This document shows positions 9,487 through 60,369 of a stretch of DNA of 64,000 bases, piece after piece (position 1 is the first letter of the stretch; the number at the start of each line of letters is the position of its first letter). A model generated the notes under the pieces. That model saw only the letters and a list, made by a program, of their open reading frames with translations, was not told the origin of the DNA and did no database searches. The stretch comes from Cytophaga sp. FL35 (GTDB taxonomy: Bacteria; Bacteroidota; Bacteroidia; Flavobacteriales; Flavobacteriaceae). The position numbers and the translations under genes were made by a program. Location: positions 62,001 through 126,000 of the forward strand of contig NZ_JACSOH010000001.1 in the NCBI RefSeq assembly GCF_014349235.1, read 5' to 3'.

Positions 9487-9493
9487 ATTGTAC

Positions 9494-11151: not shown

Positions 11152-11156
11152 CCTTT

Positions 11157-11744
11157 TTATTCATCTATAAGTCCATGTATTTTAGCATACTGCAAAAGCA
11201 TAATGGATTTGGAGTCTTTAATCTCCCCACTTGAAATCATGGACATCGCAGTTGAAAACGGCATTTCAAGAACTTCTATATTTTCGGTTTCATCTGCTGC
11301 ACCGCCGCCTTCGTTCACTTTCATACGGGCCTCATATTCGCCCACGAAAAAATGAAGGATTTCCGTTACCGAACCGGGAGACATATAACTTTCAAAGACT
11401 TTTCTAACCTTATCTATTTGATATCCGGTTTCTTCCTCTACCTCTTTCTTAATGCATTCTTCTGGGTTCAAACCGTCTAACAGTCCTGCGCATACTTCCA
11501 CCATCATGCCGTCTTCGTTACCGTTCACGTAAGTAGGCATTCTAAACTGTTTGGTCAACACTACGGTCCCTTTCTTTTTGTTATATAACAAAATAGCAGC
11601 TCCGTTACCCCGGTCATACGCTTCACGCTCTTGGATCTCCCACAAGCCGTCATCTTTTTGATATTCGTAGGTGTATTTATTTAAGGTATACCAGTTGTCT
11701 GATAGTACTTCCTTGGTAATATTCTTTATTCGGGAATTGTTCAT
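11157..11744 (-). CDS. Nudix hydrolase, NudK/GDP-mannose pyrophosphatase-like
   Basis: 195 residues with a Nudix box, [20 protein letters not shown] followed by TGYQ, in which Lys replaces the usual Arg before the first catalytic Glu, as I recall for NudK. The preceding [13 protein letters not shown] and the [15 protein letters not shown] segment also fit NudK/ADP-ribose pyrophosphatase-type proteins that hydrolyse nucleoside diphosphate sugars. Cytosolic. It lies 9 bases downstream of the Tat-type subunit gene and may share its transcript. Confidence 0.85.
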
Positions 11745-11753
11745 CTAGGCTAT

Positions 11754-12347: not shown

Positions 12348-12350
12348 AAC

Positions 12351-39070: not shown

Positions 39071-40339
39071 ATGGAAACATCAAGTAATGTGTCGGCAACC
39101 AATGCCAACAGACTCTTTTATGCAAGTTGCTTTGCATTGATTACCACAGCCTTTTCCTTTAGTATACGGGCTGGTATTTTACCTCAATTAGGAGAAGAAT
39201 TAAGTTTAACCGCAGAACAACTAGGGTTTATCAACTCCATGTGGTTTTTAGGCTTCCCCATATCTATGGTCATCGGTGGATTGATTTACCATAAGGTGGG
39301 CGGTAAAGCTATTATGCAATTTGCCTTTTTTGCCCATGCATTGGGTATTATCCTTACTATTTATTCGGGAAGTTATACAGGCCTTCTTATATCCACTTTG
39401 TTAATAGGGCTAGGTAATGGATGTACTGAAGCCGCTTGTAACCCAATGATTGCAGATGCCTACCAAGGTACCCGAATGAGTAAAATGATGAACCGTTTTC
39501 ACATGTGGTTCCCAGGAGGTATCGTAATTGGTAGTTTAATTTCCAAATTTATGACCGATTGGGGCATGAGCTGGGAAACCCAAATTTGGATCATAATGAT
39601 TCCTACTTTGATCTATGCTTATTTATATTTTGGTCAAGCCTGGCCAAAAGCAAAAGTGGAAGAAGGGGCTACTCTCTCTGGAAATTTCAAGGCAATGCTT
39701 TCGCCCCTGTTCCTTTTCATGGTAGTTTGTATGGCATTAACCGCTGCTTCGGAATTTGTACCGCAACAATGGTCCAGCATTATCCTTGCTAAAAGCGGGG
39801 CCCAACCCATGTTAATTTTGGCATTGGTTACGGGAATTATGGCAGTGGCCCGTTATTTTGGTGGAGAAATGGTTCATAAATTTGACCAAACCGGAGTATT
39901 ATTGGGATCAGCAGTACTAGCTGCCGTAGGAATCTATTTATTTAGTACACAAACCGGTGCAATGGCCTATGTAGCTGCCATCTTTTTTGCTTTGGGTGTT
40001 GCTTATTTCTGGCCTAATATGCTTGGCTTTGTTGCTGATAAAATTCCAAAAAGTGGAGCATTGGGACTGTCTATTATGGGTGGTGTTGGTATGTTCTCCC
40101 AAACTATTTTCCAACCAATTACGGGAAGATGGATCGATAACGACCTTAAAGAAGTAGCTGCTAGAGGTCTTACTGGAGATGAATTGGAATTAGTGGCCGG
40201 TCAACAAACCATGCAAACACTCACAATTTTCCCAATTATACTAATTGTACTATTTACAATTTTATTCTTCTGGGTTAGAAAAATGAAAGCAACATCAACC
40301 GCTGAAGCTCAATCACCCTCCGAGAATACAGCGATGTAA
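39071..40339 (+). CDS. MFS transporter, probable sugar uptake
   Basis: 422 residues with twelve likely membrane helices. The first half has FSIRAGILPQLGEELSLTAE and a GLIYHKVGGKAIM loop of the MFS type; LIGLGNGCTEAACNP and the MNRFHMWFPGGIVIG helix resemble FHS/glucose-galactose-like MFS proteins of Bacteroidota. It is divergent from the sulfatase-FGE-galK operon and is likely its cytoplasmic-membrane sugar importer. Followed by a strong terminator. The sugar is inferred from context only. Confidence 0.85.
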   Translation: METSSNVSATNANRLFYASCFALITTAFSFSIRAGILPQLGEELSLTAEQLGFINSMWFLGFPISMVIGGLIYHKVGGKAIMQFAFFAHALGIILTIYSGSYTGLLISTLLIGLGNGCTEAACNPMIADAYQGTRMSKMMNRFHMWFPGGIVIGSLISKFMTDWGMSWETQIWIIMIPTLIYAYLYFGQAWPKAKVEEGATLSGNFKAMLSPLFLFMVVCMALTAASEFVPQQWSSIILAKSGAQPMLILALVTGIMAVARYFGGEMVHKFDQTGVLLGSAVLAAVGIYLFSTQTGAMAYVAAIFFALGVAYFWPNMLGFVADKIPKSGALGLSIMGGVGMFSQTIFQPITGRWIDNDLKEVAARGLTGDELELVAGQQTMQTLTIFPIILIVLFTILFFWVRKMKATSTAEAQSPSENTAM

Positions 40340-40363: not shown

Positions 40364-40398
40364 AAGCGGTTCCGAAATTTTTGGGGCCGCTTTTTTTT
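40364..40398 (+). terminator. Terminator of the MFS gene
   Basis: 10-bp stem AAGCGGTTCC / GGGGCCGCTT with two G-U pairs (40364-40373, 40383-40392), then eight T to 40398. Confidence 0.82.
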
Positions 40399-41839
40399 AT
40401 GCAATCTCGAGGCTAACACTTGAGAAATTGCTTTTTGGCCCTTCGCAAACAGGGCATATATAATTACTTGGTAAATTTTCAAAAGTGGTTCCAGCAGGTA
40501 TTCCAGACTTTTCATCCCCATAGGATTCATCAAAAACCGTAAGACATTTAGAGCATTGATACACTGTACGGGCTTCCTTGTCTTTTTCGCTTTTGTTTTC
40601 CAAAGTTGCAGAAACCCCAGAAGCAAAGCCCAACTGCTCAAAGTATTTCTTACTTAACTCCATCAATAACCCAGGTAATTCAATCTTATCCACATCTTGG
40701 GCCAACGCCTGATATTTAAGGGAATTAGGGTCAAAATTTTCAAAGTGAAGTACGTTGTATGTTGGCCTTACCTCAAAATCCTTTACAATGGATGGCGGAG
40801 CATTTTTTTCGATAATGACCGATGCAAAATGGGAACGCTTGCCCACATCATTGCTTATACCAAAGGTTAGGCCATAGGTGCTAATATCATTCTGATCAAA
40901 ACTCCTCACCAAAAACTTTTTCAATTCCATAGCTTCTTCATCATCCACAGGAAGATGCCAGTTCATCTCTAGTTGAGAATGCCTAATGTTAATACCCCTT
41001 TGCCCTAAGAACCTTTCCAATTCTGGTCTTGATTCTTTTTTTATGCCTTTAATTATAAAGGATTTCCATGGGGTAATACAGATTTTACCAATGCTGTTAT
41101 TCAAACAAAATCCACATAGCTCCCTTAAAAAATAAAGGTCGTACTTATTGTTTCGCCAATAGAGACCTAACCAGTACTGGTCAAGGCCCATACGATTCAT
41201 ACCTTCGTAATAGGGAAATTTGATATACGGAATCTCCAGAGGTTTATCTATGGTCCTACTATTGGTGTCCAACTGTTTGTGAATGTAAAAAGACAGCTCC
41301 TCTACATTATCCGCCTCTATTTGAAACTCTTCTATTGCTTTGGTGACTTTTACAATATCCCAACTATAAATTAAAACAGGGTAGTAGTCTGAGTCTTTCC
41401 AATGGGGTAATTTGATATGCAAGTACCAATAATCTTCATTTTCCGAAGCAATAAAATTTAGGTTGCCACTAAACAAGGGAACCAACCTCTGTTTTGGATC
41501 GGTAATATTGATTTTAAGCTGGGGCTTAAAGTCAAACCCCTCCAAAATATACAGATAGGTAGACCCTTTAAGCCAATGCGTCATATCAAAAATATCGGCG
41601 GAAACATAAGAACAAACTATATTTTGAAAGCTTCTGTTCGCTTCTATATTAACATTGAATTTAGACGTTATTTCCTTATAATCCTCCGAGGTATTTAATG
41701 GAAACAATAGATCTTGCCTAGAACCAAAATGAACCTCTTTAAGACCTGCGGCCTCCAGCATGGCAATACAATCCTTCAGTTCGCCCGGGGAGGTTACCCC
41801 TCCTTTAAGCATTATTCTATGCAGATTATCATTTGTCAT
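40397..41839 (-). CDS. Rubredoxin-tailed protein with nitrite/sulfite-reductase-like half domains
   Basis: 480 residues. The C-terminus is a rubredoxin: CSKC (429-432) and CPVC (462-465) with the usual spacing and GTTFENLPSNYICP. The rest resembles the paired ferredoxin-like half domains of siroheme nitrite/sulfite reductases: GGVTSPGELKDCIAMLEAAG with VHFGSRQDLLFPL at 13-48, and GKICITPWKSFIIKGI at 251-266. The siroheme-[4Fe-4S] cysteine pattern C-x5-C...C-x3-C is absent, so it is unlikely to reduce nitrite itself. It starts 13 bases after the nitrate reductase stop and is probably co-transcribed; a role as electron carrier or assembly partner is my inference. Confidence 0.72.
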   Translation of the reverse strand: MTNDNLHRIMLKGGVTSPGELKDCIAMLEAAGLKEVHFGSRQDLLFPLNTSEDYKEITSKFNVNIEANRSFQNIVCSYVSADIFDMTHWLKGSTYLYILEGFDFKPQLKINITDPKQRLVPLFSGNLNFIASENEDYWYLHIKLPHWKDSDYYPVLIYSWDIVKVTKAIEEFQIEADNVEELSFYIHKQLDTNSRTIDKPLEIPYIKFPYYEGMNRMGLDQYWLGLYWRNNKYDLYFLRELCGFCLNNSIGKICITPWKSFIIKGIKKESRPELERFLGQRGINIRHSQLEMNWHLPVDDEEAMELKKFLVRSFDQNDISTYGLTFGISNDVGKRSHFASVIIEKNAPPSIVKDFEVRPTYNVLHFENFDPNSLKYQALAQDVDKIELPGLLMELSKKYFEQLGFASGVSATLENKSEKDKEARTVYQCSKCLTVFDESYGDEKSGIPAGTTFENLPSNYICPVCEGPKSNFSSVSLEIA

Positions 41840-41852
41840 ATGACCTATAGTT

Positions 41853-44800
41853 TTAATTGACCGCAGTTTTCAACTGGGCCGATAAAATTTCCTGTACTTC
41901 CGGTTTACAACTACCACAACCGAGTCCGGCACCAGTTTGCGAACACAACTGACCAAAATCCTCACATCCTCCTCTAATGGTGTCAATAATATTTCCTTCC
42001 CCTACCTGACTGCAGGAACACACCATTTTACCCTTTAAAGGCACTGAAGTATTATTGCCCCTTAGCAATTCCTCTCTTTTTTCACTTAGTTCAATTTCTT
42101 CTTCAATTAGTCTTTTAAATTCTGCAAATTCGTTCTTATCGCCCATCAAAATAGCCCCTTTTAGGATGTCATTCTGTACAATACACTTTTTATAATACCT
42201 TTTGCTTACATCCATAAAAATAATTTCTTCAAAAGAAGCATCAGAGGAAGGCGCATTTACCATACCTAAACTACAAAGGTCTAAATCCTCAAATTTTAAA
42301 ATATTCATAAGAATGGACCCGTTGTAGTAGCTACCATAGTCCCCCAAGATAAACCTGGCTGCAATATCTGCCTGTTGTTCCGCGGCAGAGGTTATTCCAA
42401 AAAGGGAATTTTTAAACTCGGCTATTTCCCCAAGGGCAAATATGTTGGGCTGATCGGTCTGCAAATACTCATTGACAATAACCCCTCTACTGGTCAATAA
42501 GTTTGATGTTTTGGCCAATTCAATATTTGGCCTTGTACCTATAGCATAGACGATTGCATTGCATTTTATGGTTCGCCCGGTTTTTAAGGTAACGGACAAA
42601 TAGTTCTTACTGTCCTTTTCTTCAAAAACGGTACTCACCTCATTATCAAAATAGACCTTGATTCCTCGTTCCATCACATCTTGTGCCAGTAGGTTACTGG
42701 CCACTCGATCTAATTGTCGCTCCATTAATCGTGGCGCTCGCTGAATAATACTTATCTGTACTTTACGCTTTTTGAGTGCTGCAGCCAATTCCAGTCCCAG
42801 AAGTCCGCCACCCACTATGACCACGTGCTGTTCCTCTTCTGGCAAACCTGTTTTTTGGAGATAGGAACGTAGTCTATCCGCATCTCCACGTTCCCTCATA
42901 GTAAACCTCCCTGGTAAATTTATTGGTACATCATTGGGTACAAAAGCACGACTTCCCGTAGCCATTATCAAAATATCATAGGTATGCGTTACGCCCAAAT
43001 CATCTACCACTTCCTGATTCTCCTTATCCAACTTTTTTATTCCCACCCCGGAATGTAAACTGATACCCAATTTTTGTACTTCTCCCTTTTTAAGTTTTTC
43101 GAGAGCTTCCCACGAAAGCTCTTCACTTACATATTCAGGCAACAAAACCCTGTTATAGAATGGGTCTTTTTCTTTGGAGAACACATGAATTTCATCACTC
43201 TTATTTTTTGAACGGTAGGTTTGAACGAACCTATAGGCAGCGGCTCCCGCTCCTATAACCACCACTTTTTGTTTCGGCTTTACATATTTGGCGACCTGAA
43301 CGGCACAATATTTAAAATCCGGCTCCTTGGAAATGGGGTCTACTAAATCATTCGTCATGTTATTGGCACGACCAAAATCATTGTTCAATACCTTGCCCCA
43401 GTGCATGGGCAAAAAGACCACCTGCTCCCTTATGTCATAATTTACCTTGACCTTTACCTGTACTTCTCCCCTACGGCTCTTTACAGTAGCTACATCACCT
43501 TCTTTAAGCCCTCTTAGGTAGGCATCTACTTTGTTCATTTCCAAGTAAGGTTCCGGAATGTGGGTGAGCAATCTTTTCACCTTTCCCGTCTTGGTTCGGG
43601 TATGCCATTGATCTCTAACCCGGCCGGTATTTAAAATAAGTGGATATCGTCCATCTGTTTTCTCGGACTGATTATACAGTTTGGGCGGAGCATTAAAGTG
43701 CGATTTTTCATCATTGGTGAAAAACTTACGATTCGTGAACAATCTTGGAGTACCCATATGTTCTTTATGCGGAACGGGCCATTGAAAACTACCTTCATTT
43801 TGTAGACGTTCATACGATAATCCTGAAATATCAATATTGGTGCCCTTGGTCAATAGACAATGCTCATCATATACTTCACTAGCATTGGAATAATCAAATC
43901 CCTTATAGCCCATTTTCTGGGCAAAGCGCCATAGAATTTCCGCATCTGCCATGGCTTCCCCGGGAGGGTCTATGACCTTGGGAAGGTAACTGATACGACG
44001 TTCTGAATTGGTCATCGTACCTTCTTTCTCTAACCATCCGGCTGCCGGTAATAACAAATCTGCATATTTGGTAGTTTCGGCATGATGTGAAATATCCTGA
44101 ACCACCACAAAACTGGCGTTTTCCAGCGCTTTCTCCACTTTATGCACATTGGGAAGACTCACAATAGGATTTGTACAAATTATCCAAATGGCTTTCATTT
44201 TACCAGATGCCAAAGCATCGAACATCTCCGTTGCGGTATACCCTGCTTCACCTGAAATTTCCTTTCCTCCCCAAAAGTTAGATACTTCCTTTCTGTGATT
44301 AGGGTTCCCTAAATCCCTATGCGCCGCCAATAAACTGGCCATACCTCCTACCTCTCTACCCCCCATGGCGTTGGGTTGACCCGTTAAGGAAAAGGGGCCA
44401 GCCCCAGGTTTACCAATTTGTCCCGTCAATAGGGAGAGGTTAAGAAGGGCCAAATTTTTACTGACCCCAATTACGCTTTGGTTTAAGCCCATGGTCCACA
44501 TAGAAATGAAGGCTTTTGCATTGCCAATATAACTGGCAGCAGTACGAATTTCTTCCACGGTAATTCCGCAAAGTTCCGCTGCCTTTCGTAAACTCAACTG
44601 AAATGCGCTCTCTTTACATGCCTCAAAATTAACCGTATGTTGTTTTATGAATTTTCGGTCAATTTTTTTCTTTTCTATGAGCCACCTTGCTATCGCGTTG
44701 AATAAAATAACATCCGTACCCGGTAATATTTGTAAATGAAGGTCTGCCAAAGCACAAGTCTGTGTCTTTCTAGGGTCCACTACAATTATTTTAACATCTG

Positions 44801-45386
44801 GATTCTCTTCCTTGTGTTTTTCAATTCGCCTAAAAAGTATAGGATGACACCAAGCAGGGTTGGCTCCGGCAATCAGAAAACAGTCTGCCAATTCAATATC
44901 GGCATAGGAAATAGGAACTGAATCTTCACCCAGGATTTTTTTGTAGCCCACAACGGCCGAGCTCATACACAACCTAGAATTGGTATCGATATTATTGGTG
45001 CCAATAAACCCCTTGGTAAGTTTGTTGACCAAATAATACTCCTCAGTAAGGCATTGGCCTGAAACGTAAAAGCCCACACTATCCGGGCCATGTTTATTAA
45101 TAATACTCTTAAAAACTGCTACGGCACGATCAAATGCGGTATCCCATGAAACCCTTTGCATAGGATGGTTTCTGCTCCACCTCATTTGTGGGTAAAGAAT
45201 CCTATCAGTAGTATCTTGCGCTACGTAGTTTAGGTTTTTCCCTTTGGAACAAAGCATTCCTTTGTTCACCGGATAGTCCTCATCGCCTTCAACGCCAATG
45301 GTACCCTTTGCATCTACTTTAACCTTTATACCACAGCCAACACCGCAATAGGAGCAAATTGTTTTATGTTCAGTTTCTCTATGCAT
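41853..45386 (-). CDS. nasA: Assimilatory nitrate reductase fused to NAD(P)H/FAD reductase and BFD [2Fe-2S] domain
   Basis: 1177 residues, about 400 longer than a NasA alone. Residues 11-46 bind a [4Fe-4S] cluster (CSYCGVGC and later Cys46 in GMLCSKG). The molybdopterin domains follow to about 690, with NTNSRLCMSSAVVGY and LTGQIGKPGAGPFSLTGQPN. From about 705 there is a pyridine-nucleotide-disulphide-type FAD domain (VVVIGAGAAAYRFVQ, HVVIVGGGLLGLELAAALKK). The last 57 residues form a BFD-like [2Fe-2S] domain (CSCSQVG...GCGSCKP). Klebsiella uses separate subunits for these roles. It reduces nitrate to nitrite in the cytosol. A 7-2-7 palindrome lies upstream. Confidence 0.92.
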   Translation of the reverse strand: MHRETEHKTICSYCGVGCGIKVKVDAKGTIGVEGDEDYPVNKGMLCSKGKNLNYVAQDTTDRILYPQMRWSRNHPMQRVSWDTAFDRAVAVFKSIINKHGPDSVGFYVSGQCLTEEYYLVNKLTKGFIGTNNIDTNSRLCMSSAVVGYKKILGEDSVPISYADIELADCFLIAGANPAWCHPILFRRIEKHKEENPDVKIIVVDPRKTQTCALADLHLQILPGTDVILFNAIARWLIEKKKIDRKFIKQHTVNFEACKESAFQLSLRKAAELCGITVEEIRTAASYIGNAKAFISMWTMGLNQSVIGVSKNLALLNLSLLTGQIGKPGAGPFSLTGQPNAMGGREVGGMASLLAAHRDLGNPNHRKEVSNFWGGKEISGEAGYTATEMFDALASGKMKAIWIICTNPIVSLPNVHKVEKALENASFVVVQDISHHAETTKYADLLLPAAGWLEKEGTMTNSERRISYLPKVIDPPGEAMADAEILWRFAQKMGYKGFDYSNASEVYDEHCLLTKGTNIDISGLSYERLQNEGSFQWPVPHKEHMGTPRLFTNRKFFTNDEKSHFNAPPKLYNQSEKTDGRYPLILNTGRVRDQWHTRTKTGKVKRLLTHIPEPYLEMNKVDAYLRGLKEGDVATVKSRRGEVQVKVKVNYDIREQVVFLPMHWGKVLNNDFGRANNMTNDLVDPISKEPDFKYCAVQVAKYVKPKQKVVVIGAGAAAYRFVQTYRSKNKSDEIHVFSKEKDPFYNRVLLPEYVSEELSWEALEKLKKGEVQKLGISLHSGVGIKKLDKENQEVVDDLGVTHTYDILIMATGSRAFVPNDVPINLPGRFTMRERGDADRLRSYLQKTGLPEEEQHVVIVGGGLLGLELAAALKKRKVQISIIQRAPRLMERQLDRVASNLLAQDVMERGIKVYFDNEVSTVFEEKDSKNYLSVTLKTGRTIKCNAIVYAIGTRPNIELAKTSNLLTSRGVIVNEYLQTDQPNIFALGEIAEFKNSLFGITSAAEQQADIAARFILGDYGSYYNGSILMNILKFEDLDLCSLGMVNAPSSDASFEEIIFMDVSKRYYKKCIVQNDILKGAILMGDKNEFAEFKRLIEEEIELSEKREELLRGNNTSVPLKGKMVCSCSQVGEGNIIDTIRGGCEDFGQLCSQTGAGLGCGSCKPEVQEILSAQLKTAVN

Positions 45387-49246: not shown

Positions 49247-49918
49247 CTATATCAAATTAAATTTCTGTGCCTTTTTTGATAGGTCAATAAGGTTTTTCAC
49301 ATCCATCTTCCGCATAAGATTAAACCTATGGGTTTCTACCGTTCTTTTACTATTCTGAAGTTTTTCGGAAATCTGCTTATTGGTTAGTCCGGACAATACC
49401 AATTCCAGAATCTGTAATTCCTTATTGGTCAATTCAAAAGGATTATTGCCCACCTTTAGCTTGGATACTTTCTCAACAATTTTCTTCGTGGGATTCAAAA
49501 GGTTGTTTACCAGAACATTGGAAATATCACCGCTGTAATAAGTTCCGCCTTCCCTAACGGTTTGTATGGCTTTAATGAACTCTACTTTACCCGTATCCTT
49601 TAAAAGATATCCTTTGGCACCAGCACTTACCGATTTTAAAATATATTCTTCGGAATCATGCATGGAAAGAATGATACACTTAACACTGGATTTTCTTTTA
49701 TTCAGCTCATTGACCGCCTCAATCCCCGTCATATTTGGCATCCTGATGTCGATAATCAAAATCTCAGGATTTTTTTCCTCCACTAGTTGCAATGCTTCTA
49801 GGCCATCATCTCCCTCTCCTATAACTTCTAAATCAGATTCGCTCTCTAGCAAAGCTTTAATCCCATCTCTTACTAAAGAGTGGTCATCAACCAAAACGAT
49901 ACTTGTGGTATTGCTCAA
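49247..49918 (-). CDS. NarL/LuxR-type response regulator, probable nitrate/nitrite regulator
   Basis: 223 residues. Receiver domain with VLVDDHSLV, phosphoacceptor Asp57 (ILIIDIRMPNMTG), ILSMHD and YLLKDTGK; LuxR helix-turn-helix at about 160-220 (LTNKELQILELVLSGLTNKQ, TVETHRFNLMRKM). I find no ATG or GTG in frame; the likely start is TTG at 49918. A 16-bp 7-2-7 palindrome lies 4 bases upstream and a good promoter just beyond. The placement beside nitrate uptake genes and matching operators at nas, nrt and nir genes make it the likely island regulator; its partner kinase is probably the gene at 60465. Confidence 0.87.
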   Translation of the reverse strand: MSNTTSIVLVDDHSLVRDGIKALLESESDLEVIGEGDDGLEALQLVEEKNPEILIIDIRMPNMTGIEAVNELNKRKSSVKCIILSMHDSEEYILKSVSAGAKGYLLKDTGKVEFIKAIQTVREGGTYYSGDISNVLVNNLLNPTKKIVEKVSKLKVGNNPFELTNKELQILELVLSGLTNKQISEKLQNSKRTVETHRFNLMRKMDVKNLIDLSKKAQKFNLI

Positions 49919-50053: not shown

Positions 50054-51346
50054 CTAATCCTTAGCGGTATTTAAAAATTTTGGTTTGATGACCAGCATGG
50101 CCCAAGCCCAGTTTTGGCTACTTGCCGCCATATCCTCGGCAACTCCCTTTAATTCGTACATCCCGCTAGCGGCAAACATGTGGGAATAGCCTATTTTAAG
50201 GGCATAGCCATTAAATGCCTGTGAATAGACCAAATCAACTTCAGTTCCTAAATTGCTTTCGCCACTAGGCAAATCTTGTTCCCCATTGAACTTTAAGATT
50301 TTAAGAAGTAGACTTGATTTTTCTCCCAATTTAAAGTTGGCACTGGCATGTATATCAAATAGACCCACAGAGTTCGCGTGGTTGCCTACGTAGAAATAAT
50401 CCATGAAGCCATTAAATTTGTGATTCGTTCCGTAAAGTGGAAAAAATGCTTCGGTTTCACCAGTGGTATCGGCCTTATTACCACTTATAATTTCGGTACC
50501 GATACCCAAGCCTATCGTATTGGAAGCTTTATAGGTCAGATCGAGCCCCAATAAATAGGCCCCGCTTACTTTTGCCTCATTTTGCCTTTCGCCTGTCTGT
50601 AAAAAGGCATTCAAAGCTGCACCGAATTTCCCTGAACTATAATTTAAATGAGTACCCAAGGTCTGCAGATTACTCACCCCGTCGGCCACTTGGGCATCAC
50701 CTTCTGTTATAAAGTTTTGAAATCCGTTATTGAGCAATAAAAGGCTACCGGAAAAATTATCCCATTTTTGCTTGAGATAAAGGTACTGCATAGTTTTATA
50801 GGAAAAGAATCCCGTGGTATTGTAGGCCGTTCCCACCGATTGAAAACCAGCCGGATTGCTGAAATCCTGATTAAATGCCAGACCAAGATCAAGCATAAAC
50901 CTGTCTTTGTTATAGCTGAGAAGGGCTGCATCGTGATTTCGGCCTTGTTGAGCCCAGTCAAGTCCCCCAAAAATTCGTTGATCATCATACGAAATTACCT
51001 GTCGGCCTAATTTAGTGGAAAAGCCCTTGCCCAAGTTCAATTTTGCCCAAGCCTGAAAAACAGCAAAGGAATTATTTTGATCGTAGGGTAAAATCTGCCT
51101 ATTCTCGCCCCAGACCATGACATCTTGAAGACTCAAATAAAATTCATACGAACTAAACTTATAACCCGCGTTCAATCGGGTTCGGGTCGAAATTGCGTAG
51201 CCAGGGTCCGCCACATCTGGAATGATGGAACCAAAGCCATTGCGATATTCGGTACGGGGCCTAAATTCACCATCCAAAATAAATTGAGAATTAATATAGT
51301 TTACCGATAGAAATACTAGGATTAATAAAATGTATTGGTTTTTCAT
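50054..51346 (-). CDS. Alginate-export-family outer-membrane beta-barrel, probable nitrate-island porin
   Basis: 430 residues with a signal peptide (MKNQYILLILVFLSVNYINS) and a long run of amphipathic strands, e.g. FILDGEFRPRTEYRNGFGS, YAISTRTRLNAGYKFSSYEF and KLNLGKGFSTKLGRQVISYD, as in the alginate-export (AlgE-like) barrel family. Relatives are often generic porins unrelated to alginate. It follows the second nitrate ATPase gene by 31 bases in the same direction, so it probably ends the nrtABCD operon and provides outer-membrane passage for nitrate or nitrite. That role is inference from position. Confidence 0.8.
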   Translation of the reverse strand: MKNQYILLILVFLSVNYINSQFILDGEFRPRTEYRNGFGSIIPDVADPGYAISTRTRLNAGYKFSSYEFYLSLQDVMVWGENRQILPYDQNNSFAVFQAWAKLNLGKGFSTKLGRQVISYDDQRIFGGLDWAQQGRNHDAALLSYNKDRFMLDLGLAFNQDFSNPAGFQSVGTAYNTTGFFSYKTMQYLYLKQKWDNFSGSLLLLNNGFQNFITEGDAQVADGVSNLQTLGTHLNYSSGKFGAALNAFLQTGERQNEAKVSGAYLLGLDLTYKASNTIGLGIGTEIISGNKADTTGETEAFFPLYGTNHKFNGFMDYFYVGNHANSVGLFDIHASANFKLGEKSSLLLKILKFNGEQDLPSGESNLGTEVDLVYSQAFNGYALKIGYSHMFAASGMYELKGVAEDMAASSQNWAWAMLVIKPKFLNTAKD

Positions 51347-51377: not shown

Positions 51378-52211
51378 TTAATGCTCTAGAAAATCAATCA
51401 AATGTTTGCGGTAGGCATAGTAATCATCCTGCTCTAGCACCGATTTTCTGGTTCTTGGTCTTTCAAAATCAATATTGAGAATATCACCGATTTTAGCTCT
51501 AGGTCCGCTAGTCATCATCACAACCCTGTCTGCCAAGAAAATAGCTTCGTCCACATCGTGGGTAATCATCACCGCCGTAATCTTTTCTTTGTTCCATATC
51601 TCAATTAAAATATCTTGCAATTCTCCTCGGGTGAGGGAATCGAGCATTCCAAAAGGTTCATCCAACAATAACACCTGTGGTTTTATGGCAAAAGCCCGTG
51701 CAATACCTACCCGTTGTTGCATGCCTTGCGAAAGTTCTTGTGCTTTTTTATCGAATGCACCATCCAGGCCTACCTTATGCAAATAGTATTTGGCAATGTC
51801 CTTTCTCTGTTGCTTGGTAGCATGTGGGAATACCTGATTGACTCCTAACATTACGTTCTGCAAAGCGGTCATCCAAGGCATTAAACTTGGTGCTTGAAAA
51901 ATAACCCCTCTATCCGGTCCAGGACCTTTTACAGGATTGCCCAAGACCGAAATATTTCCACCAGAAATAGCGTTCAAACCCGCTATCATTGATAACATGG
52001 TGGTTTTACCACAACCAGAATGCCCAATAATGGTCACAAATTCTTCTTTCATAATCTGAAGATTCAAATGTTCGAGTACCACATAATCTCCTTTGGGAGT
52101 TGGATACACCTTTTTTAGATCATTCAAATCAAGCATTACAGGCGACGGGTAGAGTATACCGTTTTCATAGGTTCCTAAACTTTCTTTATTCTCAATGGTA
52201 GATGTGTTCAT
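51378..52211 (-). CDS. nrtD: ABC transporter ATP-binding protein, nitrate type (NrtD-like)
   Basis: 277 residues. Walker [11 protein letters not shown], signature [16 protein letters not shown], Walker [15 protein letters not shown] and the switch His in [10 protein letters not shown]. An N-terminal extension of about 25 residues precedes the domain. Similar to nitrate/sulfonate/taurine importer ATPases. It pairs with the preceding ATPase as a heterodimer. Gap to the upstream ATPase gene 17 bases. Confidence 0.9.
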
Positions 52212-52228
52212 CTTTGTGATTTTTAAGG

Positions 52229-53068
52229 TTAGGCTACAAAACTTTTCGGACTAATTTCAGGCAGTTCGTATTGCGTCTGCACTTCGGCTTTTCTTTCGTT
52301 TCCGATATCCATCAGATATTCAATAATGGCATTTCGTGTTTTCTTATAATTGACATTGTCGTTCAACTCGGTTTTATCCCTTGGCCGGTCGATATCAATT
52401 TTAAATTCAGGTCCTAAAGTTGCCCTTGGTCCCGGACGGAGCGGAATAATGCGATCAGCCATATAAATTCCCTCATCCACATCATTGGTAATCAAAAGGG
52501 CGGTGCGCTTATCCTTACTCCAGATATTGAGTATTTCATCTTGTAGGTTGCCACGGGTCAAAGCGTCAAGGGCTCCCAACGGCTCATCCATAATGATCAT
52601 TTCCGGATTCATGGCCAGGGCCCTTGCGACTGCTACCCGTTGCCTCATTCCCCCAGAAAGCTCTTTGGGTCTTTTGTTAATGGCGGGACTAAGACTTACC
52701 ATCCCCACAAATTCTTTCACCCTTTTCATGAGCTCCGATTTTTTTTCCTTTGGGAATGCTTCCTTGACAGCCATATACACATTTTGACCAACCGTCAACC
52801 ATGGCAAAAGCGAATAGTTTTGAAAAATTACCCCCCTATCGTGGCTTGTACCCTTAACCGGTTCGCCCTTAAAAAGAACCTCTCCGCTGGTGGGTTGTAA
52901 CAAACCGTTTATCAGGTTGACCAATGTTGTTTTTCCGCTTCCCGTAAATCCTACGATGGCCACGAACTCTCCCTCTTCAATACTCAGATTAATATCGGAA
53001 AGTACTTCTGTAGCACTGCTACCTTGTCCGTAAGTTTTGTACACATTGTTTAATTCTAAATAGGCCAT
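52229..53068 (-). CDS. nrtC: ABC transporter ATP-binding protein, nitrate type (NrtC-like, without the C-terminal sensor domain)
   Basis: 279 residues. Walker [13 protein letters not shown], signature [16 protein letters not shown], Walker [13 protein letters not shown]; the usual switch His is Asn in [10 protein letters not shown], as is often seen in nitrate ATPases of this type by my recollection. Cyanobacterial NrtC carries a fused NrtA-like C-terminal domain of about 400 residues; this protein lacks it. Gap to the permease gene 18 bases. Energises nitrate uptake. Confidence 0.9.
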
Positions 53069-53086
53069 ACCCTTTGTTTTTATAAA

Positions 53087-54193
53087 TTATATAGCTTCGC
53101 TTTTATTGAAAGACACCATGTTTTGAATGGTCAGCATAAGCCTATCCAATAAGAAACCGATGATTCCTATGACAAACATGGCCACAATGATTTTTGAATT
53201 GGAATCGATGGCCCCATTCTGAAATTCCTCCCAAACGAAAGATCCTAAACCAGGACTCTGGGCCAAAAGTTCAATGGCGATCAACACCATCCAAGCCACG
53301 GAAAGTGTAATTCTCAAACCTGTAAAAATCAATGGTAACGACGATGGTAATATCACCTTGAACACCTTCTGCAAAGGCTTCAATTTTAATACTTTGGCAA
53401 CATTTATATAGTCCTTATCCACCGTGGCGACACCCATGGCCGTATTGACCAAAGTGGCCCACATGGCACAAAGACCTACACTTATAAATGAAATGATAAA
53501 AGCACTATCTGAATTGGAATCTTTGGTCATCGTCTTTACGATCATGAATACCAATAACAACCAAACTACGGGCGATACAGGCTTAAATATCTGTATTAAC
53601 CAATTGAAAGAACTTCTAAGTACGGGACTCAAACCAATAATTATACCGATGGGAACCGCAATGATCAATGCCAATAAAAATCCCGCAAAAACGGTTTTTA
53701 AACTGGTGAAAATTTGGTCCACAAAAGATGGGCGACCTGTATAAGTTATAGGTGCTTTACCTTCCGCTTCACGTTTGGCATTCAGTGCAGCCGTTTTTTC
53801 TGCAAAAGCATCCTTATCGGCGCTGATTACTTTATGATCGGCAATTAATGTTTGCAACGATTGCCACACCTGGCTGGGTGACGGTAAGGTATTGGGTTGA
53901 CAACTGATATCCCCAGATGCGATACAAGCTTTCATGGCTTCCGCTGCCTCAGCACCCTGATCGGCCAGTGCCTTTTCGATTTTATAATCGGCCTCCATAT
54001 TAAAAAGTGCTTTTGAGCCTAGTTGCCAAAGACCAATGAAAAGCAATATGGAAAGCAAAGGAATAACAAACTTTCTAAAGATGCTCTTCACATCAAATTT
54101 AAAGGAGCCCAGTTTTACCTTGCCCGCAACCGATCCCGACGAAAAACTTCCGACCAGGTCATTTACTTTGGTTAATACAATACTTTGTTTCAT
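53087..54193 (-). CDS. nrtB: Nitrate ABC transporter permease (NrtB-like) with periplasmic insertion
   Basis: 368 residues, nearly 100 more than usual. After a cytosolic N-terminus and first helix (VIPLLSILLFIGLWQLG) there is a soluble stretch of about 100 residues containing CIASGDISC, a possible disulphide pair, before the second helix (FAGFLLALIIAVPIGIIIGL). The core binding-protein-dependent permease domain follows with the EAA-like loop and SSLPLIFTGLRITLSVAW. It forms the channel for nitrate. Gap to nrtA 29 bases. Confidence 0.9.
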   Translation of the reverse strand: MKQSIVLTKVNDLVGSFSSGSVAGKVKLGSFKFDVKSIFRKFVIPLLSILLFIGLWQLGSKALFNMEADYKIEKALADQGAEAAEAMKACIASGDISCQPNTLPSPSQVWQSLQTLIADHKVISADKDAFAEKTAALNAKREAEGKAPITYTGRPSFVDQIFTSLKTVFAGFLLALIIAVPIGIIIGLSPVLRSSFNWLIQIFKPVSPVVWLLLVFMIVKTMTKDSNSDSAFIISFISVGLCAMWATLVNTAMGVATVDKDYINVAKVLKLKPLQKVFKVILPSSLPLIFTGLRITLSVAWMVLIAIELLAQSPGLGSFVWEEFQNGAIDSNSKIIVAMFVIGIIGFLLDRLMLTIQNMVSFNKSEAI

Positions 54194-54222
54194 GATGCTT
54201 CTGATTTAAGTAATTGATTATT

Positions 54223-55623
54223 CTACAAAGAGGCGTTGTCTTTGTTACCTATACTAAAACTGTTGATATAGCCCAAAGGATCTTTGGCATCAAAGCTTTT
54301 CCCGTCTATAAATTCATTGGTAGCTGGCTTATAGCCATCGGTATCAGGCACGTCGGCGGCAGGAATGTGCCCTTCCTCCACTAAAATTTCGGCAGCTTTT
54401 TTCCAGATATCGGGTCTGTAAATTTCTTTAATGGTCTCATCATACCACTCGGCCGGTTTCGCATCAGGAATTTGCCCCCACCGTCTCATTTGGGTCAAAA
54501 ACCAAACTCCATCGGAATAAAAAGGATACGTAGCATTGTACTTGTAGAATACATTAAAGTCTGGCATTTCCCTTTTGTCTCCCTTTTCAAACTCGAAAGT
54601 TCCCGTCATAGAATTGGAAAGTACCGCTTCATCAGCCCCTACATATTGAGACATGCTCAATATTTTAACGGCCTCTGCCCTATTCTCAGGTTCGTCTAAC
54701 CACTTACCAGCTCTTATTAAGGCCTTGGTTACGGCAATAGCTGTATTGGGATTTTCCTCAACAAACTTTTTGGTCATCACAAATACCTTCTCAGGATTGT
54801 TCCTCCAGATATCGTAATTGGTAGTGACCGGTACCCCTATTCCTTTGAATACGGCCTGTTGGTTCCAAGGCTCACCTACACAATATCCATAAATAGTACC
54901 CGCTTCAAGAGTTGCCGGCATTTGCGGTGGTGGTGTTACGGATAATAAAACCTCGGCATCGATTTGCCCCTGCACATTATCTTTTGTGTACATGCCCGGA
55001 TGAATACCAGCAGCAGCCAACCAATATCTTATTTCATAATTGTGGGTAGAAACTGGAAAAACCATTCCCATCTTAAAAGGCTTTCCGCTATTCTTATACT
55101 CCGTTATAACAGGCTTTAGAGCATCTGCTTTAATAGGATGTTGCGGTTTACCATCTTCATTTAAGGGAATGTTGGGTTTCATTTTAGACCAAACTTCATT
55201 TGAAACCGTAATGCCATTTCCATTAAGATCCATTGAAAATGGTGTTACCAGTTGGGCCTGACGACCAAAACCTGCACCAGCGGCTATGGGCTGGCCGGCC
55301 AACATGTGCGAACCATCTAACTGCCCATCTATTACTCGGTCCAAAACATTTTTCCAGTTTGATTGCGCTTCTACAGAAACAAATAATCCTTCATCCTCAA
55401 AAAAGCCTTTTTCCTTGGCAATGGCCAAAGGAGCCATATCCGTAAGTTTAATAAAACCAAACGTCAATTGTGGTTTTTCAACATCAAGGGTCTTTGAAAT
55501 AGCACTAGTAGAAGAAACTTCTGCGCTTGCCGTTTCTTTTGATTGTTTCTCTCCTTTTCCGCCACATGCTACTATAAGTAATGCAGACAAAAAGAAAAAA
55601 ACTGTTTGAGTTCTCGATTTCAT
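54223..55623 (-). CDS. nrtA: Nitrate ABC transporter substrate-binding lipoprotein (NrtA/CmpA-like)
   Basis: 466 residues with lipoprotein signal ending LLIVAC (Cys20). The body matches NrtA/CmpA proteins: [20 protein letters not shown], then the binding half [34 protein letters not shown] and [19 protein letters not shown]. It captures nitrate in the periplasm and hands it to the permease. First gene of the nrtABCD-porin operon. A 7-2-7 site with one mismatch and a perfect TAnnTTTG -7 element lie upstream. Confidence 0.93.
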
Positions 55624-55880: not shown

Positions 55881-56654
55881 CTAAAATGCAGAGAAGAGTA
55901 TTCTTTGGACTTCCTCATTAAAATACAAAGGATGTTTCGCCACTACATCGCCAATTACAATGATACCAGGTCGCTCACAATCAATGGCAGGAAGTTTTGT
56001 AGAAAATGACGATAACGTACCCAAAAAACATTGCTCGTTGCTATTAGTGCCGTTTTGAATTATCGCCGCAGGAGTTGAAGAATCCCTATATCTACTGACT
56101 TCAAGCATTATTTCTGCGGCTTTTCTAATCCCCATCAAAATGACTAAAGTGGCCGTAGAGCGAGCAGCATGTTGCAAATCTTCTGAAAAATTACCATCTC
56201 TTTTTGTGGCAGTCATTACCCAGAAACTGCTGCTCAAACCTCTTGAGGTCATGGGAATTCCCTGACTTGAAGGTACGGCGATGGCACTGCTTACCCCCGG
56301 AACAACCGTCACCGGAATACCAAAAGACTCTACATATTCGATTTCTTCACAGGCCCTGCCGAAAACAAAAGGATCTCCTCCCTTTAAGCGAACAACATGA
56401 CCAAATTCCAAAGCCATTTTTACAATCAACTCATTTATTTGTTCTTGACTGCGACTGTGGGTGCCACATCTTTTCCCTACGTATATCACTTTAGATTTTT
56501 CACCTACGAATTGCAATAGTTCTTCGTCAATAAGAGCGTCATACAAAACTACATCGGCATCTTTCAAAGCTCTCAAACCCCTAATAGTAATAAGGTCTGA
56601 CGCACCTGGGCCAGCACCTACCAATGTTACCTTTGGTTCAAATGTAGATTTCAT
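55881..56654 (-). CDS. cobA: Uroporphyrinogen-III C-methyltransferase (siroheme synthesis)
   Basis: I choose the ATG at 56654 (MKSTFEPKVTLVGAGPGASD); an ATG at 56726 would add 24 atypical residues. The 257-residue product has the SUMT motifs VTLVGAGPGASDLITIRGL, YVGKRCGTHS and RLKGGDPFVFGR. It methylates uroporphyrinogen III with SAM to precorrin-2, leading to siroheme, the cofactor of the NirB enzyme encoded divergently. Stand-alone CobA type without the CysG dehydrogenase/chelatase domain, so those steps must be encoded elsewhere. Confidence 0.93.
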   Translation of the reverse strand: MKSTFEPKVTLVGAGPGASDLITIRGLRALKDADVVLYDALIDEELLQFVGEKSKVIYVGKRCGTHSRSQEQINELIVKMALEFGHVVRLKGGDPFVFGRACEEIEYVESFGIPVTVVPGVSSAIAVPSSQGIPMTSRGLSSSFWVMTATKRDGNFSEDLQHAARSTATLVILMGIRKAAEIMLEVSRYRDSSTPAAIIQNGTNSNEQCFLGTLSSFSTKLPAIDCERPGIIVIGDVVAKHPLYFNEEVQRILFSAF

Positions 56655-56732
56655 AATACTTAATTTATTTAGGTAGGATTGACAATTCCTCAACAAAACT
56701 ACGTAATTATTTTCATAAAAACACACTTAAAA

Positions 56733-56779: not shown

Positions 56780-59296
56780 ATGAAAACAATAATTGTTGTC
56801 GGTAACGGCATGGTAGGCTATAAGTTCTGTGAGAAATTCGTATCCCATGAAAAAAGCAAAAACTTCCAACTTGTTGTTTTTGGCGAAGAACCAAGACCAG
56901 CTTATGACCGCGTACATTTAAGTGAATATTTTGAAAGCCAAGATGCCAAAGCGCTTGAGATGGCCCCGAAAGAATGGTATTTAGAAAATAAAATAGAATT
57001 GGTGACTTCTGAACGCGTGCTCGATATCAATCGCGATTCAAAAACTATTTCCACATCTAAAGACCGCATCTTCAGTTATGACTACTTGGTTCTTGCTACG
57101 GGTTCATCCCCTTTCGTACCTCCAATAAAAGGAGTAGAAAAAAAGGGGGTTTTTGTCTATAGAACCATAGAAGATTTAGAAGGAATGTTGGCGTATGCCG
57201 CCGACCTTAAAAAGACAAAACCCAATGCAAAGGCCGCTGTTTTGGGCGGTGGCCTCCTAGGACTCGAAGCCGGTAAGGCAGTGTTGGATATGGGCTTAGA
57301 ACCCCATATTGTAGAGTTCGCCCCAAAACTAATGCCCAGACAATTAGATTCTAGAAGTAGTAAGGTACTACAATTAAAGTTGGAGTCCATCGGGTTGAAC
57401 ATTCATTTAAGTAAGGCCACCAATCAAATTTTAGGAAATGGCTCGATCGAGGGTATGGAGTTTGGTGAAGACGACCTGCTTGATGTCGATATGCTCATCA
57501 TTTCTGCAGGTATTAGACCTAGGGATGAACTTGCAAAAACCTGCGGTCTAGAAATCGGTGTGCGTGGCGGAATCGTCGTTAACAATAAAATGCAAACCGC
57601 TGATGAACATATCTATGCCATTGGCGAGGTAGCATTATTGAATCAAATGATTTACGGACTGGTGGCTCCTGGCTATGACATGGCCGATGTGGCCGTCAAA
57701 CAGATTTTAGGCGAAACTGAACCCGATATGCCTACAGACATAGATATGTCCACCAAACTAAAGTTAATTGGTGTTGATGTGGCCAGTTTTGGAGAACCCT
57801 TTATGCCTGCTTCCAAAGGCCATTCCATTATTTACGAAGACAAAACCAAATTTCTCTACAAACGTATTAACGTTAGCCACGACCGTAAAAAGCTTTTAGG
57901 TGGTATTTTGGTGGGAGATGCTTCCGATTACAATATGCTACACCAAGTATATCTGAACGGTATGCCAATTCCCGAAGAACCTGCTCAATTGATTTTACCT
58001 AGTTCCGATGGTGCCGCTTCCTTTGGCAATGTCATGGATTTACCGGACGAAGCACAAGTCTGTTCCTGTGAAAGCGTCACAAAGGGACAAATTTGTGGGG
58101 TTATAGAAAACGGGGAAGCCAAAGACTTGGCCGATGTGGTCTCCTGTACCAAAGCAGGGACCGGTTGTGGTGGCTGCAAACCCATGGTAAAGGATATTAC
58201 CGAAGCTACTTTGAAGTCGCTGGGCATAGAAGTGAAAGACTCCATCTGTGAACACTTTGATTACAACCGACAAGATTTGTACAAAATCATTCAGGTAAAA
58301 GGCTATACTACTTTTAATGAGGTACTAGACAATCACGGTAACGGTGGTCATGGTTGTGAACTGTGCAAACCCGTAGTAGCCTCCTTAATGGCAAGTATTC
58401 ATGCGGATACGGCCAATAAGGAATATGCCATTCAAGATTCAAACGATCGGTTTTTGGCCAATATTCAGCGTAATGGTACTTATTCGGTAGTTCCTAGGGT
58501 GCCAGGGGGAGAAATTACCCCCGATAAATTGATTGCCCTTGGTGAAATCGCCAAAAAATATGACCTGTACACCAAAATTACCGGTGGGGTACGTGTCGAT
58601 TTGTTCGGAGCAACCTTAAGACAGTTGCCTCTTATCTGGAAGGATTTGATCGCTCACGGATTTGAAAGTGGCCATGCCTATGGTAAATCCTTACGTACGG
58701 TAAAAACCTGTGTAGGTTCCACTTGGTGTCGCTATGGTATGGATGAAAGTGTAAGCTTCGGCATTGAATTGGAAAACCGGTACAGAGGTATTCGAGCGCC
58801 GCATAAAATCAAGGGTGGGGTTTCGGGATGTATCCGGGAATGTGCAGAAGCCCGTGGTAAAGATTTCGGACTTATTGCCGTTGAAGGAGGATGGAACCTT
58901 TACGTAGGTGGTAACGGAGGGGCAAATCCCCGACATGCCGAACTCTTTGCGGAACAAATAGATAATGAAACCGTCATTAAATATTTAGACCGCTACTTAA
59001 TGCTCTACATGCGTACGGCCAAGCCTTTACAGCGTACAGCGGCCTGGCAAGAACGTTTGGAAGGGGGAATTGAATATTTGAAGGAAGTAGTTATTGAGGA
59101 CAAATTAGGCATCGCCAAAGATTTGGAAGAAGAAATGCAAACCTTGGTCAACAAATTTGAATGTGAGTGGACCCAAGCGGTCAACAACCCTGAAATGATG
59201 AAACGCTTCAACCACTTTGTGAACAGCAAAGAAGAAGATGATAACTTGGTTTTTGTTCCCATGAGGGAGCAAAAAATGCCTGAACCTTGGAAATAA
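56780..59296 (+). CDS. nirB: NAD(P)H-dependent nitrite reductase large subunit
   Basis: 838 residues, normal NirB length. FAD/NAD domain at 1-400 (IIVVGNGMVGYKFCEKF, AAVLGGGLLGLEAGKAVLD), first BFD [2Fe-2S] domain at about 426-475 (CSCESVTKG...GCGGCKP), a second partial BFD-like segment ending GHGCELCKP near 525, then the siroheme/[4Fe-4S] domain with Cys644, Cys650, Cys684 and Cys688 (CVGSTWC and GCIREC). It reduces nitrite to ammonium with NAD(P)H in the cytosol. Its gene has a perfect palindrome upstream and is followed by nirD. Confidence 0.96.
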   Translation: MKTIIVVGNGMVGYKFCEKFVSHEKSKNFQLVVFGEEPRPAYDRVHLSEYFESQDAKALEMAPKEWYLENKIELVTSERVLDINRDSKTISTSKDRIFSYDYLVLATGSSPFVPPIKGVEKKGVFVYRTIEDLEGMLAYAADLKKTKPNAKAAVLGGGLLGLEAGKAVLDMGLEPHIVEFAPKLMPRQLDSRSSKVLQLKLESIGLNIHLSKATNQILGNGSIEGMEFGEDDLLDVDMLIISAGIRPRDELAKTCGLEIGVRGGIVVNNKMQTADEHIYAIGEVALLNQMIYGLVAPGYDMADVAVKQILGETEPDMPTDIDMSTKLKLIGVDVASFGEPFMPASKGHSIIYEDKTKFLYKRINVSHDRKKLLGGILVGDASDYNMLHQVYLNGMPIPEEPAQLILPSSDGAASFGNVMDLPDEAQVCSCESVTKGQICGVIENGEAKDLADVVSCTKAGTGCGGCKPMVKDITEATLKSLGIEVKDSICEHFDYNRQDLYKIIQVKGYTTFNEVLDNHGNGGHGCELCKPVVASLMASIHADTANKEYAIQDSNDRFLANIQRNGTYSVVPRVPGGEITPDKLIALGEIAKKYDLYTKITGGVRVDLFGATLRQLPLIWKDLIAHGFESGHAYGKSLRTVKTCVGSTWCRYGMDESVSFGIELENRYRGIRAPHKIKGGVSGCIRECAEARGKDFGLIAVEGGWNLYVGGNGGANPRHAELFAEQIDNETVIKYLDRYLMLYMRTAKPLQRTAAWQERLEGGIEYLKEVVIEDKLGIAKDLEEEMQTLVNKFECEWTQAVNNPEMMKRFNHFVNSKEEDDNLVFVPMREQKMPEPWK

Positions 59297-59307
59297 TCAA
59301 TTCAAAC

Positions 59308-59694
59308 ATGCTAGAGATGATTGCAACAACCAAAAAATACGAAACTGTTAAAGCAAACGAAGTGACCGTATGGTTCAAAGCGGCTTCGGTAAATGAATTT
59401 CCCAAAGATGGAGGTGCCTGTGTAAAGTATAAAGACCTGCAGATTGCCGTTTTTAACTTTACGCGACTGAATAAGTGGTATGCCACCCAAAACCTATCTC
59501 CAGAAAAACAGGAAATGGTTCTTAGCAGGGGGATGATTGGTGACCATAAGGGAATTCCCATGGTAGCCTGCCCCTTGCACAAACGTATTTTTTCGCTTGA
59601 GGACGGCCGTAACCTCAACGGTGATTTAGAACCAATAGCCACCTACCCTGTTAAGATACTTGATGGATATGTTCACATAGGCTTTTCCCATTAA
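59308..59694 (+). CDS. nirD: Nitrite reductase small subunit, Rieske-like
   Basis: The ATG at 59308 gives 128 residues and starts 11 bases after the nirB stop; a TTG inside nirB is a less likely start. The Rieske-like fold is visible (TVWFKAASVNEFPKDGG, GIPMVACPLHKRIFSLEDGR), but only one Cys-x-x-His box is present, as usual for NirD, so it does not bind a [2Fe-2S] cluster. It stabilises or supports NirB. Co-transcribed with nirB. Confidence 0.93.
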   Translation: MLEMIATTKKYETVKANEVTVWFKAASVNEFPKDGGACVKYKDLQIAVFNFTRLNKWYATQNLSPEKQEMVLSRGMIGDHKGIPMVACPLHKRIFSLEDGRNLNGDLEPIATYPVKILDGYVHIGFSH

Positions 59695-59778: not shown

Positions 59779-60369
59779 ATGCCTACCTCCGAGAAATTAG
59801 CGGAAGCCTTTAAGAAGTTTGACGAAGCCAATAGCAAAGACCCAAATACCGAGGAGTATCAGGGAAAAAAATATCCTAAGGAAGTGTTGTACGCACAGAG
59901 GATGACGCAAAAACTGGACGATTTTGATTCCAATGCCTCCGATGCCCTTAGACTTACGGCACGTTGCCAGCATATTCGCCGGTGGGAAATACCGCGTGAT
60001 AGCTATGAGATGAACCGTGTAGGCTATTTAAAATGGCGACAAGATTTAAAGAAATTCCATGCGAAAGTGGCGGCTGAAATTTTGGAACAAGTAGGATACG
60101 ACCAAGCGACCATTGACAAAGTCGCCTTTCTTTTAGAAAAAAAGCAACTCAAAAAAAATGAGGAGACCCAAACATTGGAAGATGTCATCTGCCTTGTTTT
60201 TTTAGAATATTATTTTGAAGACTTCAGTGAGGAACATCCGGAAGAAAAAATAATCGATATTCTCCAGAAAACATGGAGAAAAATGTCTCCTAAGGGGCAT
60301 GAAGCTGCTTTAAAACTGCCTTTATCCCCTACCTCCCTTGAGCTAATTAAAAAAGCGCTGGAGGCATAA
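59779..60369 (+). CDS. DUF4202 protein, nitrite-reductase associated
   Basis: 196 residues matching what I know as DUF4202: KFDEANSKDPNTEEYQGKKY at the start, YAQRMTQKLDDFDSNASDAL, RLTARCQHIRRWEIPRDSY and KWRQDLKKFHAKVAAEIL. The conserved His residues in an all-helical frame suggest an HD-like metal-dependent hydrolase, but a proper HD pair is not certain. It lies 84 bases after nirD on the same strand and before the sensor kinase gene, so a link to nitrite assimilation or its control is likely. Biochemical role unknown. Confidence 0.8.
   Translation: MPTSEKLAEAFKKFDEANSKDPNTEEYQGKKYPKEVLYAQRMTQKLDDFDSNASDALRLTARCQHIRRWEIPRDSYEMNRVGYLKWRQDLKKFHAKVAAEILEQVGYDQATIDKVAFLLEKKQLKKNEETQTLEDVICLVFLEYYFEDFSEEHPEEKIIDILQKTWRKMSPKGHEAALKLPLSPTSLELIKKALEA

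Follow-up and report, generated by a model that had tools for sequence, protein, structure and literature searches.

What does a reductase-like protein that ends in a rubredoxin do directly beside a nitrate reductase? The gene that raises this question lies on the minus strand at 40397-41839 of the window, as we call the whole 64,000-nucleotide stretch of Cytophaga sp. FL35 DNA that was analysed. Its open reading frame, which has an ATG start, encodes 480 amino acids, and Pfam and the predicted fold divide the product into a body of the sulfite/nitrite reductase (SiR/NiR) type and a rubredoxin. The ORF is separated by 13 bases (41840-41852), a spacing already given in the initial annotation, from that of a fused assimilatory nitrate reductase, NasA (41853-45386, minus strand, 1177 aa, identified with Pfam and NCBIfam). 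That annotation had read the body as two ferredoxin-like half domains of a degenerate reductase from which the siroheme-[4Fe-4S] ligands are missing, and had suggested an electron-transfer or nitrite-channelling partner in nitrate assimilation. The host genome holds a single copy of the gene, and the closest named relatives, among the 80 of 575 relatives listed, are from Euzebyella, at 97 and 87% along the body.

Domain make-up and predicted fold

We observed in a Pfam scan of the 480-aa protein that residues 427-472 match PF00301 (Rubredoxin) at E 4e-16 and that the CxxC...CxxC knuckle formed by Cys429, Cys432, Cys462 and Cys465 is complete, so that the rubredoxin domain proposed initially was borne out; the NCBIfam rubredoxin equivalog remained under its cut-off (45.9 vs 90 bits). 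Solved rubredoxins match residues 424-477 of the predicted model (40409-40570, minus strand) with Z up to 9.8; the two best rubredoxin rows align over 52-53 residues at 38-40% identity, and the other rows listed show 27-41%. In contrast to these, the rubredoxin here is tethered to a reductase-fold body, through a linker of low model confidence (residues 408-423; 40571-40618, minus strand). In members with a full rubredoxin, 22-31 residues (median 24) lead from residue 403 of the body to the first cysteine of the rubredoxin. The scan also placed PF03460 (NIR_SIR_ferr) over its cut-off (E 7.6e-8) in two stretches, the better of which is residues 237-278, and this family was matched by 27 of the 27 members of the body alignment at E 0.01. 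The catalytic family PF01077 (NIR_SIR) was not matched by the 480-aa protein at E 1 nor by any of the same 27 members at E 0.01; the control, a genuine sulfite reductase of locus L058, matched it at 3.7e-45.

A structure model of the 480-aa protein was built with 57 relatives (mean pLDDT 83.8, pTM 0.77), and was least certain (pLDDT <50) at residues 287-290 and 410-421. Fold comparison of this model gave Z 25.3 with SiRHP (rmsd 3.6 over 369 residues, 15% identity), Z 23.8 with spinach NiR and Z 22.7 with NirA, and the best Foldseek match, at E 3.9e-16, was also to NirA. The match to SiRHP takes in SiRHP residues 80-545. Because the model matches the whole of SiRHP, NiR and NirA, the core domains that lie between the half domains and behind them are predicted to be present as well, and the body (residues 5-407; 40619-41827, minus strand) is, by this model, the entire two-fold SiR fold. 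The two half domains of the initial annotation are therefore there, but they are not all that is there; the unrelated fold for which that annotation had allowed did not occur. Profile-profile alignment with hhalign paired residues 5-404 of the protein with CysI 80-543, at a probability of 84.8% when run locally and 95.2% when run globally, when the family body was set against a siroheme-reductase profile of 11 sequences (E. coli CysI, eight CysI-like proteins, one HEPN-tailed SiR and the C-terminus of the window NirB). The aligned span is 400 residues in the protein vs 464 in CysI.

The SiR likeness of the body was visible only by fold comparison and profile-profile alignment. A phmmer search against solved structures returned 67 matches, the best 60 of which were all confined to the rubredoxin region, and the family body profile found in the solved structures two matches at chance level (E 0.36 and 0.51). 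We also considered whether the protein stems from NirB, as its detached siroheme-binding C-terminus, NasA itself having a NirB-like FAD/BFD module. This origin is weakened because the NirB of the window shows, by Pfam, one half domain and one NIR_SIR unit, whereas the present protein matches SiRHP 80-545. An F420-dependent sulfite reductase, in which the SiR fold is joined to other redox modules and which is such an enzyme by its title (7npa), matched the model in part, with Z 10.0 over 184 residues.

In the profile alignment, the positions of E. coli CysI C434 and C440 fall in a deletion of the 480-aa protein, and those of C479 and C483 are occupied by other residues. In none of 157 relatives do residues 280-345 contain a CX5C or CX3C motif. 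The absence of the siroheme-[4Fe-4S] ligands and the description of the protein as a degenerate SiR/NiR were thus upheld: as judged from its sequence, the protein is not a siroheme reductase by the defining cysteines, though it is of that fold. It differs from CysI and NirA/NiR also in the missing PF01077 match, in the missing R153 and in the added rubredoxin; it resembles CysI in its GxRQ motif (R117) and in the equivalents of N154 and K217.

Several residues of the old active site are retained. The equivalents of CysI R117, a residue of the SiR active site, and of N154 are R41 and N73, both invariant (59/59 and 72/72, the 72 sequences being less than 80% identical), and the equivalent of Q396 is an invariant lysine, K259 (72/72). 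As to CysI R83, R153, K215 and K217, presumably the residues that hold the substrate anion, K217 corresponds to K109 (K in 68/72; K/R in 58/59), while R83 is of middling conservation (R/K in 58/59; R in 41 and K in 27 of 72, at position 8), K215 is K/R in 40/59 and Gln in the window protein, position 107 is middling or variable, and R153 is not retained in the family by the profile alignment. In addition, Q42 and E291 are invariant among the 72 sequences, and N111, N284, R286, H287 and N293 are each present in 71 of them; the block from N284 to N293 sits just ahead of the lost cluster site. Half domain 2 keeps a CxxC (residues 242-245; 41105-41116, minus strand), with C242 in 57/59 and C245 in 59/59 sequences, and in the larger set in 67 and 69 of 72. 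In all, 35 of 399 body positions are near-invariant in the 72 sequences.

Strict linkage to the fused nitrate reductase

The NasA of the window is made of Molybdop_Fe4S4, Molybdopterin and Molydop_binding domains, a NirB-like FAD part (Pyr_redox_2, Rubredoxin_C) and a Fer2_BFD [2Fe-2S] domain, and the redox cysteines of such proteins (4Fe-4S, Mo-Cys and BFD) are complete in 104 of 104. We found the SiR-body/rubredoxin gene in 77 of 299 genomes of the host's family and a full-length fused NasA, at 64% identity or more, in the same 77; one of the NasA matches, in genome G062, carries an internal stop. In 77 of 77 genomes the two genes lie on one contig and one strand and are adjacent, with 14-101 bases (median 29) between alignment ends. 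The survey of neighbourhoods suggested at the outset covered 100 of them (loci L056-L155, in which some genomes occur twice), and in 98 an upstream NasA shares the strand of the gene, at a median distance of 24 bases, with five distances above 200 and a maximum of 982. The two neighbourhoods without NasA, one of which (L057) begins at a contig end, both hold a copy without rubredoxin. The genetic linkage of the gene to NasA is strict.

Co-occurrence was rejected as a tie to nitrate on its own, because the genomes with a NirB match are again these 77 of the 299. Since NirB shares this 77-genome profile, it is the adjacency and not the co-occurrence that points to nitrate reduction over nitrite reduction; NirB lies on another contig than the gene in 4 of the 77.

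Of 392 genomes across the phylum, 110 gave a match; on our reading of the rows, 33 match the body and the others the rubredoxin only. Outside the Bacteroidota, the gene was sought in a plasmid collection and among the 80 of 575 relatives listed. Four of 72,556 plasmid records carry it (Persicobacter twice, Hymenobacter and Spirosoma), and the best four plasmid matches of the fused NasA, at 57-61% identity over 99% of the query, are the same four records; NasA matches with at least 80% coverage came from six records, five of them among the 40 rows listed, where the fifth is from Nonomuraea at 31% identity. The Hymenobacter and Spirosoma copies bear the RefSeq product name 'rubredoxin', and in both plasmids the gene ahead of it is named nitrate reductase.

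The gene and NasA stand in a nitrate island. On the plus strand it includes nirB (56780-59296; NCBIfam NirB over cut-off), for the large subunit of siroheme nitrite reductase, and nirD (59287-59694; TIGR02378 over cut-off), for the small subunit. A uroporphyrinogen-III methyltransferase-like gene of siroheme synthesis (55881-56726, minus strand; TP_methylase) precedes nirB, and cobA is annotated at the Hymenobacter and Spirosoma islands. Four ABC-transporter genes (51378-55623, minus strand), coding by Pfam for an NMT1_2 binding protein, a permease and two ATPases and syntenic in relatives, form a transporter that is by context of the nitrate type. The MFS transporter at 39071-40339 (plus strand; MFS_1) is probably NarK-like; no NCBIfam model was over its cut-off for it, and the MFS gene of the Spirosoma island is annotated as NarK family. 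Directly after nirD there is a DUF4202 gene (59779-60369, plus strand). The Hymenobacter plasmid has a gene annotated as DUF4202 by its island as well, and 6 of 122 neighbourhood loci were found to hold one. An alginate-export-type outer-membrane protein, possibly an outer-membrane nitrate channel, is encoded inside the island (50054-51346, minus strand) and recurs in relatives. A PilJ-PAS histidine kinase (60465-62240, plus strand) and a LuxR-type response regulator (49247-49918, minus strand), possibly a nitrate-sensing pair, flank the island, and in many relatives the regulator is again found upstream of NasA.

Copies of the body without rubredoxin

We reduced 204 loci to 157 members by removing identical, incomplete or <380-aa proteins. 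The rubredoxin cysteines are full in 145 of these, shortened in 2 and absent in 10. They are present in all 143 unique members linked to NasA (141 full, 2 shortened) and in 2 of the 11 evaluable members that are not so linked; for the remaining 3 of the 157, the upstream sequence was too short to judge NasA. The two shortened forms (L059, 6977-8422, a gene also covered by L055, 1477-2922; and L056, 6989-8365) have a rubredoxin-like knuckle in which a short loop joins CX2C to CX2C.

In a midpoint-rooted tree of 72 of the 157 members, all below 80% identity, the nine rubredoxin-less copies that were included form one clade (support 1.0), nested among rubredoxin-bearing, NasA-linked members. Because they nest in this manner, the tree suggests that the rubredoxin was most likely lost once. 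NasA was in the flank of 0 of the 10 rubredoxin-less copies examined, the flank being 7 kb on each side where available and, for L057, running from the contig end; rubredoxin and NasA linkage were thus lost together in this clade. A second Bacteroidota family has a member of the gene in 50 of 194 genomes, and we searched 13 of these 50 for NasA and for reductases. Fused NasA was absent from all 8 examined genomes that have a rubredoxin-less copy only. The molybdo-enzyme of G703, 795 aa long and 36% identical, lacks the FAD part. Two genomes, G749 and G783, hold both kinds of copy, and there NasA adjoins the rubredoxin-bearing one. Two further copies, L196 and L198 (genomes G676 and G811), keep the rubredoxin with no NasA nearby, and the same genomes also hold a NasA-linked copy.

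The 10 rubredoxin-less copies all keep R41, Q42, N73, K109, N111, C242, C245, K259, N284, R286, H287, E291 and N293, with Lys at position 8. The rubredoxin, it appears, goes with the nitrate reductase, and the body must have a further, rubredoxin-independent role, since these copies persist without NasA and keep the pocket residues and the CxxC. The claim of a partner in nitrate assimilation accordingly held with regard to the adjacency to NasA in 77 of 77 genomes, but it does not cover a body that survives alone without fused NasA.

We considered whether the rubredoxin-less copies are partners in sulfite assimilation, and found no rule to this effect: 2 of 10 (L058, 827-10630, and L189, about 4678-13906) adjoin genes for a HEPN-tailed sulfite reductase and tetrapyrrole genes, along with genes of the siroheme-synthase type and TauE. 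The L058 sulfite reductase has NIR_SIR twice and a C-terminal HEPN by Pfam; its Pfam neighbours include TauE, ALAD, porphobilinogen deaminase and a siroheme-synthase-type gene, and a class I/II aminotransferase-fold gene there was read as ALA synthase. No neighbour shared by L057, L186, L187, L188, L190, L191 and L193 was found on reading their ORFs over about 3.5-12.5 kb. A PF01077 reductase was present in 12 of the 13 genomes searched, and the exception, G684, has a rubredoxin-less copy.

Possible roles of the protein

The protein is probably an undescribed partner of the fused nitrate reductase. For a more exact version, in which it is an accessory subunit of NasA whose non-catalytic SiR body carries the rubredoxin as a tethered shuttle, we consider the chances to be about even. 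Its ancestor would have been a full-length siroheme reductase from which the [4Fe-4S]/siroheme anchor was lost; the body, no longer capable of SiR/NiR chemistry, would serve for docking on NasA in a physical complex; and the rubredoxin, presumably holding iron, would on its flexible linker of ~24 residues take electrons from the flavin/BFD module of NasA or from another donor and hand them to the Mo-side 4Fe-4S cluster of NasA or to another acceptor. By Pfam and NCBIfam, NasA has an FAD part of the pyridine-nucleotide/rubredoxin-reductase type, which is a possible donor to the rubredoxin; the match is unspecific in that the FAD part of the window NirB, an enzyme with its own reductase domain, matches the same models. 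On paper a further carrier is not required, because NasA carries all of its own cluster cysteines. Docking on NasA moreover cannot be the whole role of the body, because rubredoxin-less copies persist with the pocket residues and the CxxC. The association of rubredoxin with NasA depends on one loss event and has L196 and L198 as counter-examples. For nitrite channelling, the other role first suggested, we found no specific support.

Dedicated redox partners of assimilatory nitrate reductases have a precedent in Flp and NasG. Flp of Bradyrhizobium, encoded next to NasC, is reported to be needed for growth on nitrate and not on nitrite and is a proposed NasC donor, and the ferredoxin NasG of the Paracoccus nas cluster is ascribed the electron flux from NasB to NasC and NasB (PMC4724949). 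The present protein would resemble both as a supposed electron supply to the nitrate reductase; it differs from the ferredoxin NasG and the flavoprotein Flp in that the flavin module is here already fused to NasA. In two taxonomic papers on Aquirufa, a 'rubredoxin' is listed with the nitrate genes; one of the papers places it in the nitrate operon, and a table in the other scores it + + + - over four strains, the same as nitrate reductase (PMC11861422, PMC10821818). This 'rubredoxin' is probably the same gene as ours; the passages on it name the rubredoxin only and do not mention a reductase fold. In the literature searched, which lay mostly outside subscription journals and preprints, no description of an SiR-fold/rubredoxin protein or of its function was found. 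What appears to be new is an SiR fold without cofactor anchor, joined to a rubredoxin and with a fixed place next to the fused nitrate reductase in Bacteroidota.

The conserved pocket could be read otherwise: with new ligands, such as the His/Asn/Glu block at 284-293 or the CxxC, the old site of the body would still bind a tetrapyrrole, metal or anion, and the body might act on products of nitrate reduction such as nitrite or NO. The near-constant R41, N73, K109 and K259 and the 284-293 block (71-72 of 72), retained in 10 of 10 rubredoxin-less copies, are consistent with such a site, as is the low pLDDT at 287-290 and 410-421, which loops round a missing ligand may show. Yet the cofactor cysteines are lost (CX5C/CX3C in 0 of 157), R153 is gone, K215 is partial and R83 middling, and we know of no siroheme enzyme without a cysteine anchor. 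The two rubredoxin-less copies beside sulfite reductase and tetrapyrrole genes would fit this reading, but tetrapyrrole genes also adjoin the rubredoxin-bearing sister copies L201 and L204, so their position may be inherited. We regard such binding as rather unlikely, and give a similarly low probability to its boldest form, in which a pocket with re-engineered ligands is a third component that nitrate reduction in Bacteroidota cannot do without, and the rubredoxin a detachable electron supply, given up along with the nitrate reductase while the pocket goes on with another reaction.

An assembly or maturation factor, acting on NasA or in siroheme delivery to NirB, with the rubredoxin giving electrons or iron, would agree with the strict 1:1 adjacency to NasA. 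Such factors exist: NarJ is reported as a maturation factor of both the respiratory and the assimilatory nitrate reductases of Paracoccus (PMC6618116). However, our Pfam scan found no NarJ-type family, and the tie to NirB is looser, since nirB does not adjoin the gene in the window and 4 of 77 genomes carry the two on separate contigs; we think this role unlikely. It is very doubtful that the protein is a sensor of, or brake on, redox or nitrogen status, the body binding an anion and the rubredoxin reporting the redox state to NasA: the anion-site residues are conserved in part and the body is kept elsewhere without rubredoxin, but the Pfam scan found no signalling domain in the 480-aa protein, and the window has its own PilJ-PAS kinase and LuxR-type regulator, if these act on nitrate. 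To an ordinary rubredoxin behind a decaying, functionless reductase relic, as the plain RefSeq name 'rubredoxin' of two relatives might suggest, we give hardly any credence, the body being strongly constrained and outliving the rubredoxin.

An accessory subunit of NasA, as we favour, would bear on the wiring of flavin-fused nitrate reductases. As an SiR fold that lacks the cofactor cysteines, the protein would be useful for learning what this fold does without its anchor, and the rubredoxin-less clade is at hand for comparison. Should the pocket still be active, one of the oldest redox folds would have been put to a new use. If the proposed role is true, nitrate assimilation in many Bacteroidota has an obligatory component that has been hidden by its annotation as 'rubredoxin'.
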